Shown here: positions 36,815-47,420 of the stretch, in pieces
Layout of the letters: the number at the start of each line of letters is the position of its first letter
Numbering within the stretch: the stretch's first letter is position 1
Assembly: GCF_025231525.1 (NCBI RefSeq)
Contig: NZ_CP103057.1
Coordinates: forward strand, 3,048,501 to 3,112,500
Reading direction: 5' to 3'
DNA length: 64,000 nt
Source: Sphingomonas endolithica
GTDB taxonomy: Bacteria > Pseudomonadota > Alphaproteobacteria > Sphingomonadales > Sphingomonadaceae
Notes under the pieces: model-generated
The model's database searches: none
Told to the model about the DNA's origin: nothing
The model's input: only the letters and a program-made list of their open reading frames with translations
Position numbers and translations under genes: made by a program

Positions 36815-36859
36815 TGGTGCACCCGACTGGATTCGAACCAGTGGCCTCTGCCTTCGGAG
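36815..36859. other. Attachment site, distal copy (partial tRNA-Arg 3' end)
   Basis: An exact 45-bp copy of the tRNA-Arg(CCG) gene from its CCA end through the T arm to the anticodon loop. The rest of the tRNA is absent, so it is not a functional tRNA gene. It marks the left junction of the element, 108 bp from the integrase stop. Confidence 0.9.
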
Positions 36860-36966
36860 AACACCAGTCGCGCGGATTTCTGCGGTTTCTTGCCCCGTTG
36901 GACACGTTACAAAGCGGGAACATGCCGTGAATCGACGTACGTAACGCCCCCATAACTCGCCCACGG

Positions 36967-38037
36967 TCACTTTCGCCGCCGATCGGCGGCCTTTAATGCC
37001 GCCTCGAAATAGGCCGGGTGATGGTGCGCGTAGAGCTCGGTCGTGCGAGCGTGGGACTGGCCGAGCCAACCGGCGACCTGCCACAAATCCACGCCGTCCT
37101 GCGCCTTCCACGTCCCGCACGTGTGCCGCAACGTGTGCGGTGTCACCCCGGCTAAGCCCGCGTCGCGACACGCTCGCGCAAAGCTCCGCTTCACGTCCAG
37201 GATTCGTTCCCCGTCCTGTTGAAGCACGTAGCCGAGGTCCGTCCCCCGCCGCCGCGCGAGGCGCAGCAGCACCATCAACCGCCGGGGAATGGGAATGACC
37301 GCTCGCCCCTTGCTCGTGCGCTTGCGGCCGGGCGGATTGAAGTCGATCTGCCGCCGGTCGAGATCCACCTGCGGCCAACGCAGCGAGAGAAGCGCTTCCT
37401 TCCGCGCCCCGGTGTAGAGCGCCAGCAGTATGAATAGCGGCAGGTAGCCCCGCGCGCTGGTCGCGTAGTCCTTCCCTGCTATCGATCGCACCCGCCGCGC
37501 GGCCGCGACCAGGCGCGCGGCTTCCCAAGGCTCTAGCCATCGTTGCCGACCCTCCGGTTTGTCAGGCAGCAGCACATGCGGCGCGGTGGTGATACGACCG
37601 CGCTTTTGCGCGAAGTTGATGGCTGCGCGCAGCACCCCAAGCTCCTTGCGCACCGTGCCTGCCGATCGGGCACGCCAGCTCGTGTAGCCGCGACACGTTT
37701 CGTCGGTAACGTCGCCGACCGCACTTTCCTGCCAATAGGGTAGCAGCGCCTCGATGGCGTAGGCGATTCGTTCCGGAGCGGCCGTCGTAAGGGCATGTTG
37801 TTGTGCATAGAGGTCTAGGGCCTCGGTGATCGGGAATTGAGCGGGATGACGGGGGCCAGCTGGGCGCGAGCGCCTGTGGCGCTCGCCGATGAATTCGGCG
37901 AGCGACGCTTCAGCTGCTGCACGCTCACTCGTACCTGCGCTGCGGCGTCGCGAGCGGCCGTCTTCTGTCCAGTTGATGTAATAGCAGCCGCGATCGGCGC
38001 GGAAGGTGAGGTAGGCACCGCTATTCGGTCGGGGCAT
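36967..38037 (-). CDS. int: Tyrosine recombinase (integrase)
   Basis: A 356-residue integrase. The N-terminal part (YLTFRADRGCYYINWTEDGR) is a short DNA-binding arm, followed by a core-binding helix region. Catalytic residues are in ALYTGARKEALLSLRW (Arg), TPHTLRHTCGTW (His-x-x-Arg) and ARTTELYAHHHP (Tyr). It should recombine the tRNA-Arg attachment sites that flank the element. The gene lies at the end away from the intact tRNA. The start overlaps the AlpA-like gene upstream. Confidence 0.94.
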   Translation of the reverse strand: MPRPNSGAYLTFRADRGCYYINWTEDGRSRRRSAGTSERAAAEASLAEFIGERHRRSRPAGPRHPAQFPITEALDLYAQQHALTTAAPERIAYAIEALLPYWQESAVGDVTDETCRGYTSWRARSAGTVRKELGVLRAAINFAQKRGRITTAPHVLLPDKPEGRQRWLEPWEAARLVAAARRVRSIAGKDYATSARGYLPLFILLALYTGARKEALLSLRWPQVDLDRRQIDFNPPGRKRTSKGRAVIPIPRRLMVLLRLARRRGTDLGYVLQQDGERILDVKRSFARACRDAGLAGVTPHTLRHTCGTWKAQDGVDLWQVAGWLGQSHARTTELYAHHHPAYFEAALKAADRRRK

Positions 38038-38213
38038 GCTGTTATCTTCGCCTCCTGGATAAAACGCTCCACGTCAGCGGGATCGTACAGCCACGCTTTG
38101 CCGAGTTTCACCGCGGGCAAGCCCTTCTGCCGCATGAAGTCGACGGTGCGAGGGCTGGCACCAGCGGGCAGCATCGCGCTCGCGACCTGTTTCGCCGTCA
38201 TGAGCCTGCTCAT
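37815..38213 (-). CDS. AlpA/MerR-like HTH protein, possible excisionase
   Basis: A 132-residue protein whose first 60 residues are a MerR/AlpA-type winged helix: LMTAKQVASAMLPAGASPRT, VDFMRQKGLPAVKLGKAWLY, DPADVERFI. Such proteins act as excisionases or activate the integrase. The C-terminal half is Ala/Ser-rich and overlaps the integrase start by 223 bases in another frame. The ATG overlaps the stop of the upstream gene by four bases. Confidence 0.75.
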   Translation of the reverse strand: MSRLMTAKQVASAMLPAGASPRTVDFMRQKGLPAVKLGKAWLYDPADVERFIQEAKITACPDRIAVPTSPSAPIAAAITSTGQKTAARDAAAQVRVSVQQLKRRSPNSSASATGARAQLAPVIPLNSRSPRP

Positions 38214-38872
38214 GGCCGGTTCCAAACGTCGAAGATCACGGTGGACACGTCAACGGCGATGGTCGCAAGCGCGCCGTCGTTCCGGGCCTCGTGGGGAGCG
38301 CCCTGTCCGTGCCTAAACCTCCACCGATCGCCGGCACGCCAGAAGTAGCTCATATCGGGCTCATATTGCCCCCGGCGATCATCGGGCCCGGGCTGCTCGA
38401 AAATCGTCAGGAAGGCGTCGTGGTGCTGATGAAATTCCTCCGTCGACATCGAGGCGTGAATCGCCCGGATGCGCGGCGTGATGCGGGTGGCGCCGTGGCG
38501 TTCGTGGCTCCATAGGTCCAGGCTGGCGACAAGGTCCTCGCCGTTCGTGTTGAGAGCATGGGCGGTGAACGTCGCCCATAGCGCCATCACGTCGTCACGG
38601 GAGAGGCCGTACTTGTCCGCCCAAGCGATCGCGTCGCGGAACGTGGCAGTAATGGAAAGCAGCCCGTCGATCGGCACGCCGAACTGACGCAGCTGGCCCA
38701 TGAGAGCCGCTATGTTCGCTTCGTACCACTCAAACCGTAGGTGACGGCCCATGCCCGAAGGTGCCTCGATCGGACGCACCAACCCACGACGAATCCAGAA
38801 CGTCATAACGTCGTTCGGGATAGCAGCGTGGAAAGTCATGCCGCTGCGGGAAAGCGGCTCCTTGGACTGCAT
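38210..38872 (-). CDS. Putative regulatory protein of the element, unknown
   Basis: A 220-residue protein. Its first part (AAIPNDVMTFWIRRGLVRPI, GRHLRFEWYEANIAALMGQL) resembles a MerR-like winged helix with a wing at APSGMGRHL; the rest is not recognised. AAGGA lies 7 bases before ATG 38872. A dyad lies upstream at 38892-38916. Coupled to the AlpA-like gene. Confidence 0.65.
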   Translation of the reverse strand: MQSKEPLSRSGMTFHAAIPNDVMTFWIRRGLVRPIEAPSGMGRHLRFEWYEANIAALMGQLRQFGVPIDGLLSITATFRDAIAWADKYGLSRDDVMALWATFTAHALNTNGEDLVASLDLWSHERHGATRITPRIRAIHASMSTEEFHQHHDAFLTIFEQPGPDDRRGQYEPDMSYFWRAGDRWRFRHGQGAPHEARNDGALATIAVDVSTVIFDVWNRP

Positions 38873-46054: not shown

Positions 46055-46792
46055 TTATGGACTCGCGCTGCTTCCTACGACGTCGCGCCTAGCGACGGCC
46101 TGGTCCAAGAGAACGAGCTGCTGCGCCAGCTCCTTGCCAACGGCCCTGGGGGCAGGCTGGGCGACCGTATTGAACGATCGCTTTAGGAAGGCCGCGGCGC
46201 GCACCGCGGCGCCCTGTAGTCGCTTGAGGTTCGACATGAGACGTCGCCAGAAGATGGCCCATAGCGGCTTTTCCATGCGGCGTTCGCAGTTGAACAGATA
46301 ACTGTTGCACGCCTGCTTGCGGCGCGGCCCGGGCTGGCCAGCGGCGCGCTCAACCTTCTCGCTGCGGCGCACGTGATCCATAAAGCCCCAATGCTCGGCG
46401 CATTCGATCATCGCGCTGACGTTGCCGCGGCTCTGTCCGGTATCGTCCACGATCCGCTTATAGCTCACGAAAAAATCGCCGGTCTTGTGGTCGAGGAAGT
46501 CGAGCATCTTCTCAAATGTACGCAGGTAACTCGGCTGCACCTTGTGCGGCCCCTCGTATCCCTTGGTCTTATGCATGGTGCACAGGTCCTTCAGCGTCCC
46601 GATCAACGCCTGCTTGAACGCCCAGCCTTGTCCGGCCGAGCCGTCGCCGATCGGCTTGCCCGGGTTCGCTCGATGGTCGTCGACGTCGTAGCTGTAGGAG
46701 CGCACCGGATCGGTCGGGCACTCTGGGTCGCCCTTGCTCTTGCGGCGGCCGACCAAGCGGTTTGCCACTGCGCCAAATGCGGTGACGCTCAA
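46055..46792 (-). CDS. Putative replication or HTH protein of the element
   Basis: A 245-residue protein. The middle (YLRTFEKMLDFLDHKTGDFF, VSYKRIVDDTGQSRGNVSAM, IECAEHWGFMDHVRR) resembles a winged helix as in phage and plasmid replication initiators. The C-terminus is Ala-rich and basic. The start is uncertain: the first in-frame codon is TTG 46792 overlapping the upstream stop. Its place at the end opposite the integrase fits a satellite replication gene, but no catalytic motif is visible. Confidence 0.55.
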   Translation of the reverse strand: MSVTAFGAVANRLVGRRKSKGDPECPTDPVRSYSYDVDDHRANPGKPIGDGSAGQGWAFKQALIGTLKDLCTMHKTKGYEGPHKVQPSYLRTFEKMLDFLDHKTGDFFVSYKRIVDDTGQSRGNVSAMIECAEHWGFMDHVRRSEKVERAAGQPGPRRKQACNSYLFNCERRMEKPLWAIFWRRLMSNLKRLQGAAVRAAAFLKRSFNTVAQPAPRAVGKELAQQLVLLDQAVARRDVVGSSASP

Positions 46793-46995
46793 AGCGCACC
46801 GCCTGTGCGCGCTACAGGAGCGCGATCAGCTCGGCCGTCGGGCGCATCGTTTTCTTCGTAGCTGTGGCAACGGGGAACCCGCCGATCGGCGGCATGAGCA
46901 GAAATCCGAACCTCGCTGGCGAGCTGCGCCCCAAAGCGTTTCAGAATGGTATGAACGTCGCGCGATAACGGCGCGGAGGATAGGATATTCGACAT
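46789..46995 (-). CDS. Small protein of the element, unknown
   Basis: 68 residues: NILSSAPLSRDVHTILKRFG, AQLASEVRISAHAADRRVP, then a polar tail. GGGAG is upstream of ATG 46995, and the stop overlaps the next start. It is the first gene of the minus-strand series. Not recognised. Confidence 0.5.
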   Translation of the reverse strand: MSNILSSAPLSRDVHTILKRFGAQLASEVRISAHAADRRVPRCHSYEENDAPDGRADRAPVARTGGAL

Positions 46996-47343
46996 CGCGT
47001 CGGCTCCCGGCTGGGAAGTCGATGGGCGCACGAATGCGCCGGCTGAAACGCGTTCGGCCGTCGCGAGACGTACGGGGATGAAAGAGGGCGCTGATCAGCG
47101 CTCAAGGCGGGCCACGACTTCGCCATCGCCGGTAGAGTGGGGGAATAATGAGGCTCGGCGGCCATAGCGGGCCACGCCGGCACGCGGCTGATCGCCAACG
47201 CACGGTGAGTCGGGCGATAATCAAGCGCTCGCCCGCCCTAAATCAGGATCGGCGTTAAGCCGTCCAAATAGGGTTACGCGCCCATTACTCGCCCACTGGG
47301 CCGGCGCGGGGTCATCGATTGACCCCAAAAATGGCTGAAAAGC
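46996..47343. other. Right end of the element, non-coding, with 14-bp palindrome
   Basis: About 350 bases without a gene, between the first small gene and the tRNA. GCGCTGATCAGCGC at 47088-47101 is a perfect palindrome that may be an operator or part of an origin. The promoter for the leftward operon should lie here. Confidence 0.45.
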
Positions 47344-47420
47344 TGGTGCACCCGACTGGATTCGAACCAGTGGCCTCTGCCTTCGGAGGGCAGCGCTCTA
47401 TCCAGCTGAGCTACGGGTGC
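47344..47420 (-). tRNA. tRNA-Arg (anticodon CCG)
   Basis: Full cloverleaf on the minus strand. The acceptor GCACCCG pairs with CGGGTGC, the D arm is GCTC/GAGC, the anticodon stem CTGCC/GGCAG encloses the loop CTCCGAA, so the anticodon is CCG. The T arm ACTGG-TTCGAAT-CCAGT follows, and A then CCA are encoded. The 3' part serves as the integration site of the neighbouring element, which ends directly at the CCA. Confidence 0.97.

Follow-up and report, generated by a model that had tools for sequence, protein, structure and literature searches.

A 10.5-kb element in tRNA-Arg of Sphingomonas endolithica: a probable phage satellite with its own capsid gene

What is a 10.5-kb block of DNA that occupies a tRNA gene and carries a phage capsid gene, but no recognisable portal or large terminase gene? 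The block lies in a 64-kb stretch of Sphingomonas endolithica (contig NZ_CP103057.1; hereafter the window, in whose positions all its coordinates are given). We consider it a satellite of the type of the Gram-negative phage-inducible chromosomal islands (PICIs), i.e. an integrative, helper-dependent element, which belongs to a variant alphaproteobacterial family and whose capsid protein presumably works together with head parts of a helper phage; the probability of this reading is about 0.68. At the sequence level it is based on the precise insertion into tRNA-Arg, the element's own integrase and AlpA-like regulator, the capsid neighbourhood shared with other elements and the OLD-like cargo gene. 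Related elements of the family very probably parasitise viruses.

The element is bounded by a perfect direct repeat of exactly 45 bp, whose copies start 10,529 bp apart; the 3' end of an intact tRNA-Arg(CCG) gene forms the right copy (Table 1). Our comparison thus confirmed the repeat described in an earlier note on this DNA, as well as its placement of the integrase at the end away from the intact tRNA, where the gene adjoins the left repeat. The first 33 bp of the repeat, with up to three mismatches allowed, occur twice in the window and in none of 100 shuffles. With this size, an own integrase and attachment-site repeats, the element falls within the range of about 10–20 kb that characterises Gram-negative PICIs. 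A comparison of the window with 19 other nth loci of the same genus documents the state of the site in relatives: tRNA-Arg(CCG) adjoins nth in 17 of them, and in all 17 the nucleotide similarity spans dapB, nth and the tRNA and stops at the tRNA 3' end or no more than about 10 bp past it. The interior of the element has no blastn match in any of these 17 tRNA-bearing loci.

Scans of 20 open reading frames (ORFs), 19 of them inside the element, with Pfam and PHROGs reproduced the gene list of the earlier note, namely integrase, AlpA-like protein, helix-turn-helix (HTH) and ribbon-helix-helix (RHH) regulators, OLD nuclease, gp10-like protein and major capsid protein (MCP). No match to a large terminase subunit (TerL), portal, protease, tail-tube or lysis protein was found among the 20 ORFs. 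The satellite reading withstood the search for terminase, portal and tail homologues among the small ORFs, but the claim that tail genes are missing altogether needs qualifying, because the gp10-like protein belongs to a neck or tail-completion family (PHROG_5 'tail completion or Neck1', 5.8e-12). A late zone with captured phage genes and without portal, TerL or lysis genes is typical of Gram-negative PICIs, and so is an AlpA/HTH_17 regulator beside the integrase gene, which the window element possesses with a marginal score. Family PF05930 gave no match in the AlpA-like protein of the window and was matched in the related loci L002 and L003.

Elements of this kind recur in other genomes. After removal of duplicates, 16 distinct loci encode an MCP of the window type (E ≤ ~1e-110; the weakest is L005 with 9e-111), and in 14 of them the available flanks, some of which are short upstream (0.6 kb in L019, 2.1 kb in L094), contain neither portal nor TerL. 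The exceptions, L095 and L096, are satellites embedded in phages. All remaining loci of the 75 listed exhibit the order TerL–portal–ClpP–MCP wherever the contig is long enough, and the lower-scoring MCP loci have the order TerL–portal–S78–MCP of gene transfer agents (GTAs). In a later set of 55 loci (L209–L263), 53 lie above E = 1e-110 or lack an MCP match, and every portal-less locus among these 53 either lacks an MCP match or offers less than 1.5 kb of upstream sequence; the two strong matches are L242, whose record is also that of L095, and the newly added L243. The tRNA genes that the elements occupy in cellular genomes are those for tRNA-Lys, -Arg and -Ser. Direct repeats at the tRNA were found in eight of 13 such loci, with a spacing of 8,872–11,309 bp (window 10,529; L002 10,768; L003 10,109; L071 9,861; L088 10,358; L091 8,872; L089 11,309; L073 10,773, the last from a weak repeat of 85% over 26 nt), and none for L004, L005, L074, L068 and L090. 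No portal lies near the element in any of 12 element-bearing genomes; the nearest one on the same contig is about 0.4 Mb away, and three of the 12 genomes have no portal anywhere. These recurrent 9–11-kb elements at tRNA genes, which have the capsid neighbourhood in common and lack a portal, uphold the description of the block as satellite-like. The neighbourhood of a tRNA-Arg(CCT) gene and its flanking genes is common to L094 (6771–9031) and L071, and thus serves both satellites in different hosts.

A frequent companion of the capsid gene is o14, which precedes it in 11 of the 16 loci, in many loci with o12 or o13 in between. Homologues of o14 number 242, and none of the 120 listed contains a Pfam domain. 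Its profile matches 10 of 397 Sphingomonadaceae genomes, and in all nine of these ten that were checked a Phage_capsid gene lies within 2.5 kb of o14. The match in genome G156 was dismissed as false (E 7e-4, within a 620-aa frame); the respective stretch, L092, harbors no cassette gene and only an integrase fragment at one end, and G156 stands outside the portal and capsid counts. L002 reads in one direction integrase, AlpA, Prim-Pol/DUF5906, Terminase_4, o14, o12 and MCP; this order matches the published zone order of PICIs and is partly kept in L003, L005, L073 and L074. The integrase gene comes first in L002, L073 and L074 and lies at the far end in the window, L018 and L071, the last of which carries Toprim/AAA. 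Near the MCP gene, a gp10-like gene is found in the window and L094, and near or after it a tape-measure gene in L003 (11981–14407), L004, L019, L093 and L096, the latter type of gene being a possible determinant of tail length. Downstream of the MCP, the cargo comprises an OLD-like ATPase in L071 and a Drt6/Drt4-like defence reverse transcriptase in L089 (3462–5084). In the satellite-type contig L021, a gene for a ClpP-like protease (2869–3819) separates o14 from the MCP.

The history of the capsid protein was traced in a tree of 147 rows (132 different, 15 identical to another row) that was calculated with a quick method. Rows were labelled satellite if the contig reached 4.5 kb or more upstream and no portal or TerL match lay closer than 8 kb, with the window, L018, L019, L021 and L094 exempt from the upstream rule. 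Ten MCPs with short upstream sequence (including L093 and L095), frames below 900 nt and 15 loci with duplicate, broken or truncated copies (including L005) were left out. The window MCP forms an 11-row set with ten others, all labelled satellite, with a support of 97. Two more rows, L068 and L096, join in the next larger set of 13; L068 is called satellite solely for the lack of portal and TerL, and L096, which the rule labelled phage, was reinterpreted as an embedded satellite when inspected. Two further rows with a satellite label are not claimed as such, since an S78 protease lies upstream in L011, and L080 resembles a partial prophage in having additional head and tail genes; for this reason the figure of four forced label changes is disregarded. 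Among the capsid-forming PICIs (cfPICIs), clades made up of satellite capsids alone have been described (PMC11389934). The nonsynonymous and synonymous distances between the MCP genes of L003 and L004 (dN 0.0106, dS 0.254, dN/dS 0.042) indicate that the protein is under strong purifying selection in this pair; the other five MCP pairs, with dS above 1.4, are little informative. The o14-bearing loci L088, L089 and L091 have clearly different MCP lineages and L090 has a diverged MCP, although the long branches of L090 and L091 make their placement unsure. The MCPs of L088 and L089 group with that of a prophage in the genome of the window. Because o14-bearing elements thus carry several MCP lineages, different capsids seem, judging from these sequences, to have been taken up on a constant chassis. 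L068 (NZ_LR743510.1), which lies on a 2.8-Mb replicon of Methylobacterium bullatum and has an MCP of the wider clade, is the only record outside Sphingomonadales among the five titled ones with this MCP (L002–L005, L068).

Five contigs from a virus database (L018, L243, L095, L096, L019) contain a satellite of this family inside a phage gene, and embedding is over-represented among the loci because all five come from that source. The targets are genes for ClpP protease, TerL, portal and MCP, which correspond to lambda C, A, B and E. Both junctions are visible only in L018, whose MCP is the closest relative of the window MCP (67%). Its satellite of about 9.84 kb has a 17-nt repeat at both ends (16/17 identical) and is inserted at residue ~158 of 301 in the gene for a ClpP-like head protease, immediately upstream of another MCP, which is of the phage type. 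The same gene is interrupted at the same place in L243 (residues 12–158 matched), whose phage genes include TerL (3–567 of 567) and portal (33–411 of 437). L095 abuts TerL from residue 80 on, with nearly whole ClpP and MCP downstream, L096 follows portal residues 44–354 of 437, and in L019 the satellite borders on the final 25 residues of a phage MCP. The phage-adjacent copies are satellites that interrupt a phage gene, and the cassette itself, whose presence in a complete phage would have spoken against a satellite, was not found in one among the loci examined. Around the MCP, L243 and L095 are 98% identical over 3,975 nt, but towards the integrase they diverge, a pattern that suggests an exchange of integrase ends.

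A similar preference has been described for helper-embedded PICIs of Enterobacteriaceae, 97% of which are inserted in one of the four lambda genes A, B, C and E (PMC10111431). Our five embedded satellites hit the same four gene functions as this group, represented here by 11capE of E. coli, whereas the window element lies in tRNA-Arg and not inside a prophage late gene. The MCP of 11capE has no significant match among the satellite ORFs compared, and its integrase (L264) resembles those of the tRNA-borne L002, L003 and L091 (E ~1e-30). The integrases of L018, L019, L095 and L096, together with that of the tRNA-borne L071, form a group separate from 11capE (100/99). With this single enterobacterial reference, the grouping suggests that helper embedding arose a second time.

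How does the window element relate to other known satellites? Gram-negative PICIs such as EcCICFT073 and PmCI172 resemble it in their length of 10–20 kb, in the combination of integrase and AlpA-type regulator, and in their location at tRNA genes or other chromosomal sites (PMC6092414, PMC10111431). Their most frequent late gene is the MCP, reported for 21 of 29 reference elements (PMC10111431), and PmCI172, with an MCP homologue, makes small heads (PMC6092414). The earlier note was hence right about a satellite but went too far in calling one with a lone capsid unusual, also in view of Ccm, the MCP homologue of the satellite SaPIbov5 (PMC8569155). In contrast to these PICIs the window element is alphaproteobacterial, its integrase gene points outward at the operon end, no primase was matched, and its MCP is of the HK97 Phage_capsid type with the neighbours o12–o15. 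Apart from having an MCP homologue of its own, SaPIbov5, a staphylococcal pathogenicity island of the cos type, presumably differs from the window element in gene order. The cfPICIs likewise encode an MCP, but also protease, portal, connectors, both terminases and HNH according to PMC10690885, whereas the window element adds only the gp10-like protein to its MCP and has no portal nearby. The MCP of a sphingomonad GTA (L069) is ~45–50% identical to that of the window over part of its length, and the L069 cluster has the terminase, portal, protease and tail genes that the window element lacks. L069 (NZ_CP155752.1, 171322–188194) is part of a 395-kb replicon that is catalogued as a Sphingomonas parapaucimobilis plasmid. 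General PHROGs scans, without a dedicated search, indicated none of the P4 proteins alpha, Psu, Sid and delta. Among the matches listed for the CC-licensed PMC literature (titles and abstract starts) there was no alphaproteobacterial satellite with a lone MCP or inside a helper. As far as these searches show, the alphaproteobacterial family, its capsid clade and the second clade of helper-embedding integrases are apparently new.

In the proposed mechanism, an active helper phage would cause the element to excise and to replicate, possibly by means of its winged-helix protein. The late cassette would then provide a capsid protein that co-assembles with that of the helper or replaces it, the helper would contribute portal, protease, large terminase and tails, and the gp10-like protein might adapt head–tail joining. 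The OLD-like ATPase would probably shield the host from competing phages. Since related satellites sit inside such phages, the helpers would most likely be siphophages with the order TerL–portal–ClpP protease–MCP. Several observations weigh against this satellite reading. The left flank of the element was not found adjoining the tRNA in the 17 relatives, so that an empty site, for which the earlier note had proposed to look, is documented on the tRNA side only. Neither a primase nor a Terminase_4 match, both present in L002, was obtained for the window element, and its integrase gene comes last on the coding strand, pointing outward, which differs from the published order of PICIs (PMC10111431). 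Five of the 16 loci (L068, L093, L094, L095, L096) have no detectable o14. An HK97-type prophage of the same genome (G000, ~3.505–3.545 Mb; L192, L193) encodes TerL, S78 protease, MCP and gp10, but its MCP is of a different lineage and a TAA stop breaks the portal frame, so that this prophage does not attest to an intact local helper.

A further point concerns the role of the capsid gene. Deletion of its counterpart c1499 left the transfer of EcCICFT073 unaffected (PMC6092414), which means that a lone MCP may be dispensable, and the broken MCP frame of L005 points in the same direction. That the capsid is just a captured late gene of this kind is nevertheless unlikely, given the low dN/dS in the sole pair with unsaturated dS and the presence of a capsid gene near o14 in all nine genomes despite different lineages. 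More plausible, yet still doubtful, is a satellite whose capsid serves mainly for interference, poisoning or resizing helper heads instead of building a shell of its own. The precedent is Ccm, which redirects capsid shape and comes from a satellite for which no protease gene is identified in PMC8569155, and the window element likewise has no protease match. However, Ccm mixes with the helper MCP, and co-assembly is uncertain here because the window MCP shares no more than ~50% identity with MCPs of phages or GTAs, even in the segment that matches best.

Two explanations dispense with a satellite. The MCP and gp10-like genes are phage genes, and the genome contains the HK97-type prophage with its interrupted portal frame, but a remnant that lost its packaging, tail and lysis genes and kept the capsid by chance is improbable in view of the same cassette type at different tRNAs of several genera with a similar total size, of the strong purifying selection on the MCP between L003 and L004, and of MCPs that group apart from those of phages. 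A non-phage defence island that integrates and builds a protein compartment from its capsid-fold protein would agree with the OLD-like cargo and the absence of packaging matches in the window copy; it is far-fetched, because relatives carry small terminase, tape-measure or gp10-like genes near the MCP and some of them sit within phage late genes. Beyond the preferred reading of a helper-dependent satellite, we tentatively propose that the lineage kept its own capsid over a long divergence, usually with o14 and a gp10-like or tape-measure gene. This minimal kit might reprogram the helper particle, head and possibly tail, with the capsid swapped on a constant chassis, and the helper-embedding integrases, with terminase, portal, protease and capsid as targets, might have evolved separately from those of the enterobacterial helper-embedded PICIs. 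The absence of o14 from five of the 16 loci reduces the probability of this broader proposal, which we rate as rather open to doubt.

The family could help to address why many Gram-negative satellites have a lone capsid gene. Its own capsid clade, the low dN/dS in the measured pair and the frequent small partner make it a test system in environmental bacteria, and the five embedded members indicate likely helpers directly. They also point to more than one origin of insertion into the head genes of helpers.

Table 1. Features of the tRNA-Arg element in the window
Feature	Position	Strand	Evidence
attL, 45-bp copy of the tRNA-Arg(CCG) 3' end	36815..36859	.	repeat comparison, shuffle test
Tyrosine integrase, outward towards attL	36967..38037	-	PF00589 2.1e-16, PHROG_1 1.6e-46
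AlpA-like HTH_17 excisionase/regulator	37815..38225	-	HTH_17 27.6 bits (cut-off 27); PHROG_66 excisionase 8.8e-8
Unknown ORF	38210..38923	-	no Pfam, PHROGs or PADLOC match
Two small unknown ORFs	38954-39136, 39133-39489	-	ORF list; Pfam/PHROGs scans
RHH-like repressor, 3' part of ORF 39067-39774	39610..39774	+	PHROG_4738 repressor 4.3e-6
LexA/MarR-like winged HTH regulator	39937..40293	-	PF01726 25.4 bits (cut-off 23.7)
OLD/AriA-like ATPase	40294..42168	-	AAA_15 9.7e-20; PADLOC AriA 4.2e-22, Old 9.3e-15
HK97-gp10-like tail completion/neck protein, C-terminal part of ORF 42483-43292	42483..43112	-	PF04883 1e-5
HK97-fold MCP with N-terminal extension	43327..44571	-	PF05065 3.4e-79
o12, small protein just upstream of MCP, common to several relatives	44627..45073	-	
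o13, small protein common to L003, L004, L018	45046..45243	-	
o14, 83-aa helical-bundle protein, family marker	45240..45491	-	alignment A1; model pLDDT 92
o15, small CxxC protein, also in L018	45478..45687	-	
Winged-helix DNA-binding protein, candidate replication initiator or regulator	46055..46792	-	
attR, inside the intact tRNA-Arg gene	47344..47388	.	tRNA and repeat comparison
tRNA-Arg(CCG), integration target	47344..47420	-	tRNA intact

Among the ORFs with a family match, the RHH-like one alone lies on the forward strand, in line with the earlier statement that almost all genes share one strand. The AlpA-like protein also gave a weak match to PHROG_57 'terminase small subunit' (7.4e-4) over the same HTH region, which was not accepted as evidence for a small terminase. 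The gene of the OLD/AriA-like ATPase has a low GC content of about 0.50, and its product is probably anti-phage cargo. The gp10-like protein is 38.7% identical to gp10 of the prophage in the same genome and 54% to gp10 of L130. The possible replication gene of the earlier note has no family match in Pfam or PHROGs, and a replication module with a primase, as in Gram-negative PICIs, was not detected by these scans. The gene encodes instead a product that is modelled with a winged-helix fold, and four of its 20 homologues contain HTH_36; a DNA-binding function is thus predicted, with replication as a candidate role. Near the left end of the element, a 737-aa ORF (33128–35341) looks by eye like a TonB-dependent receptor.

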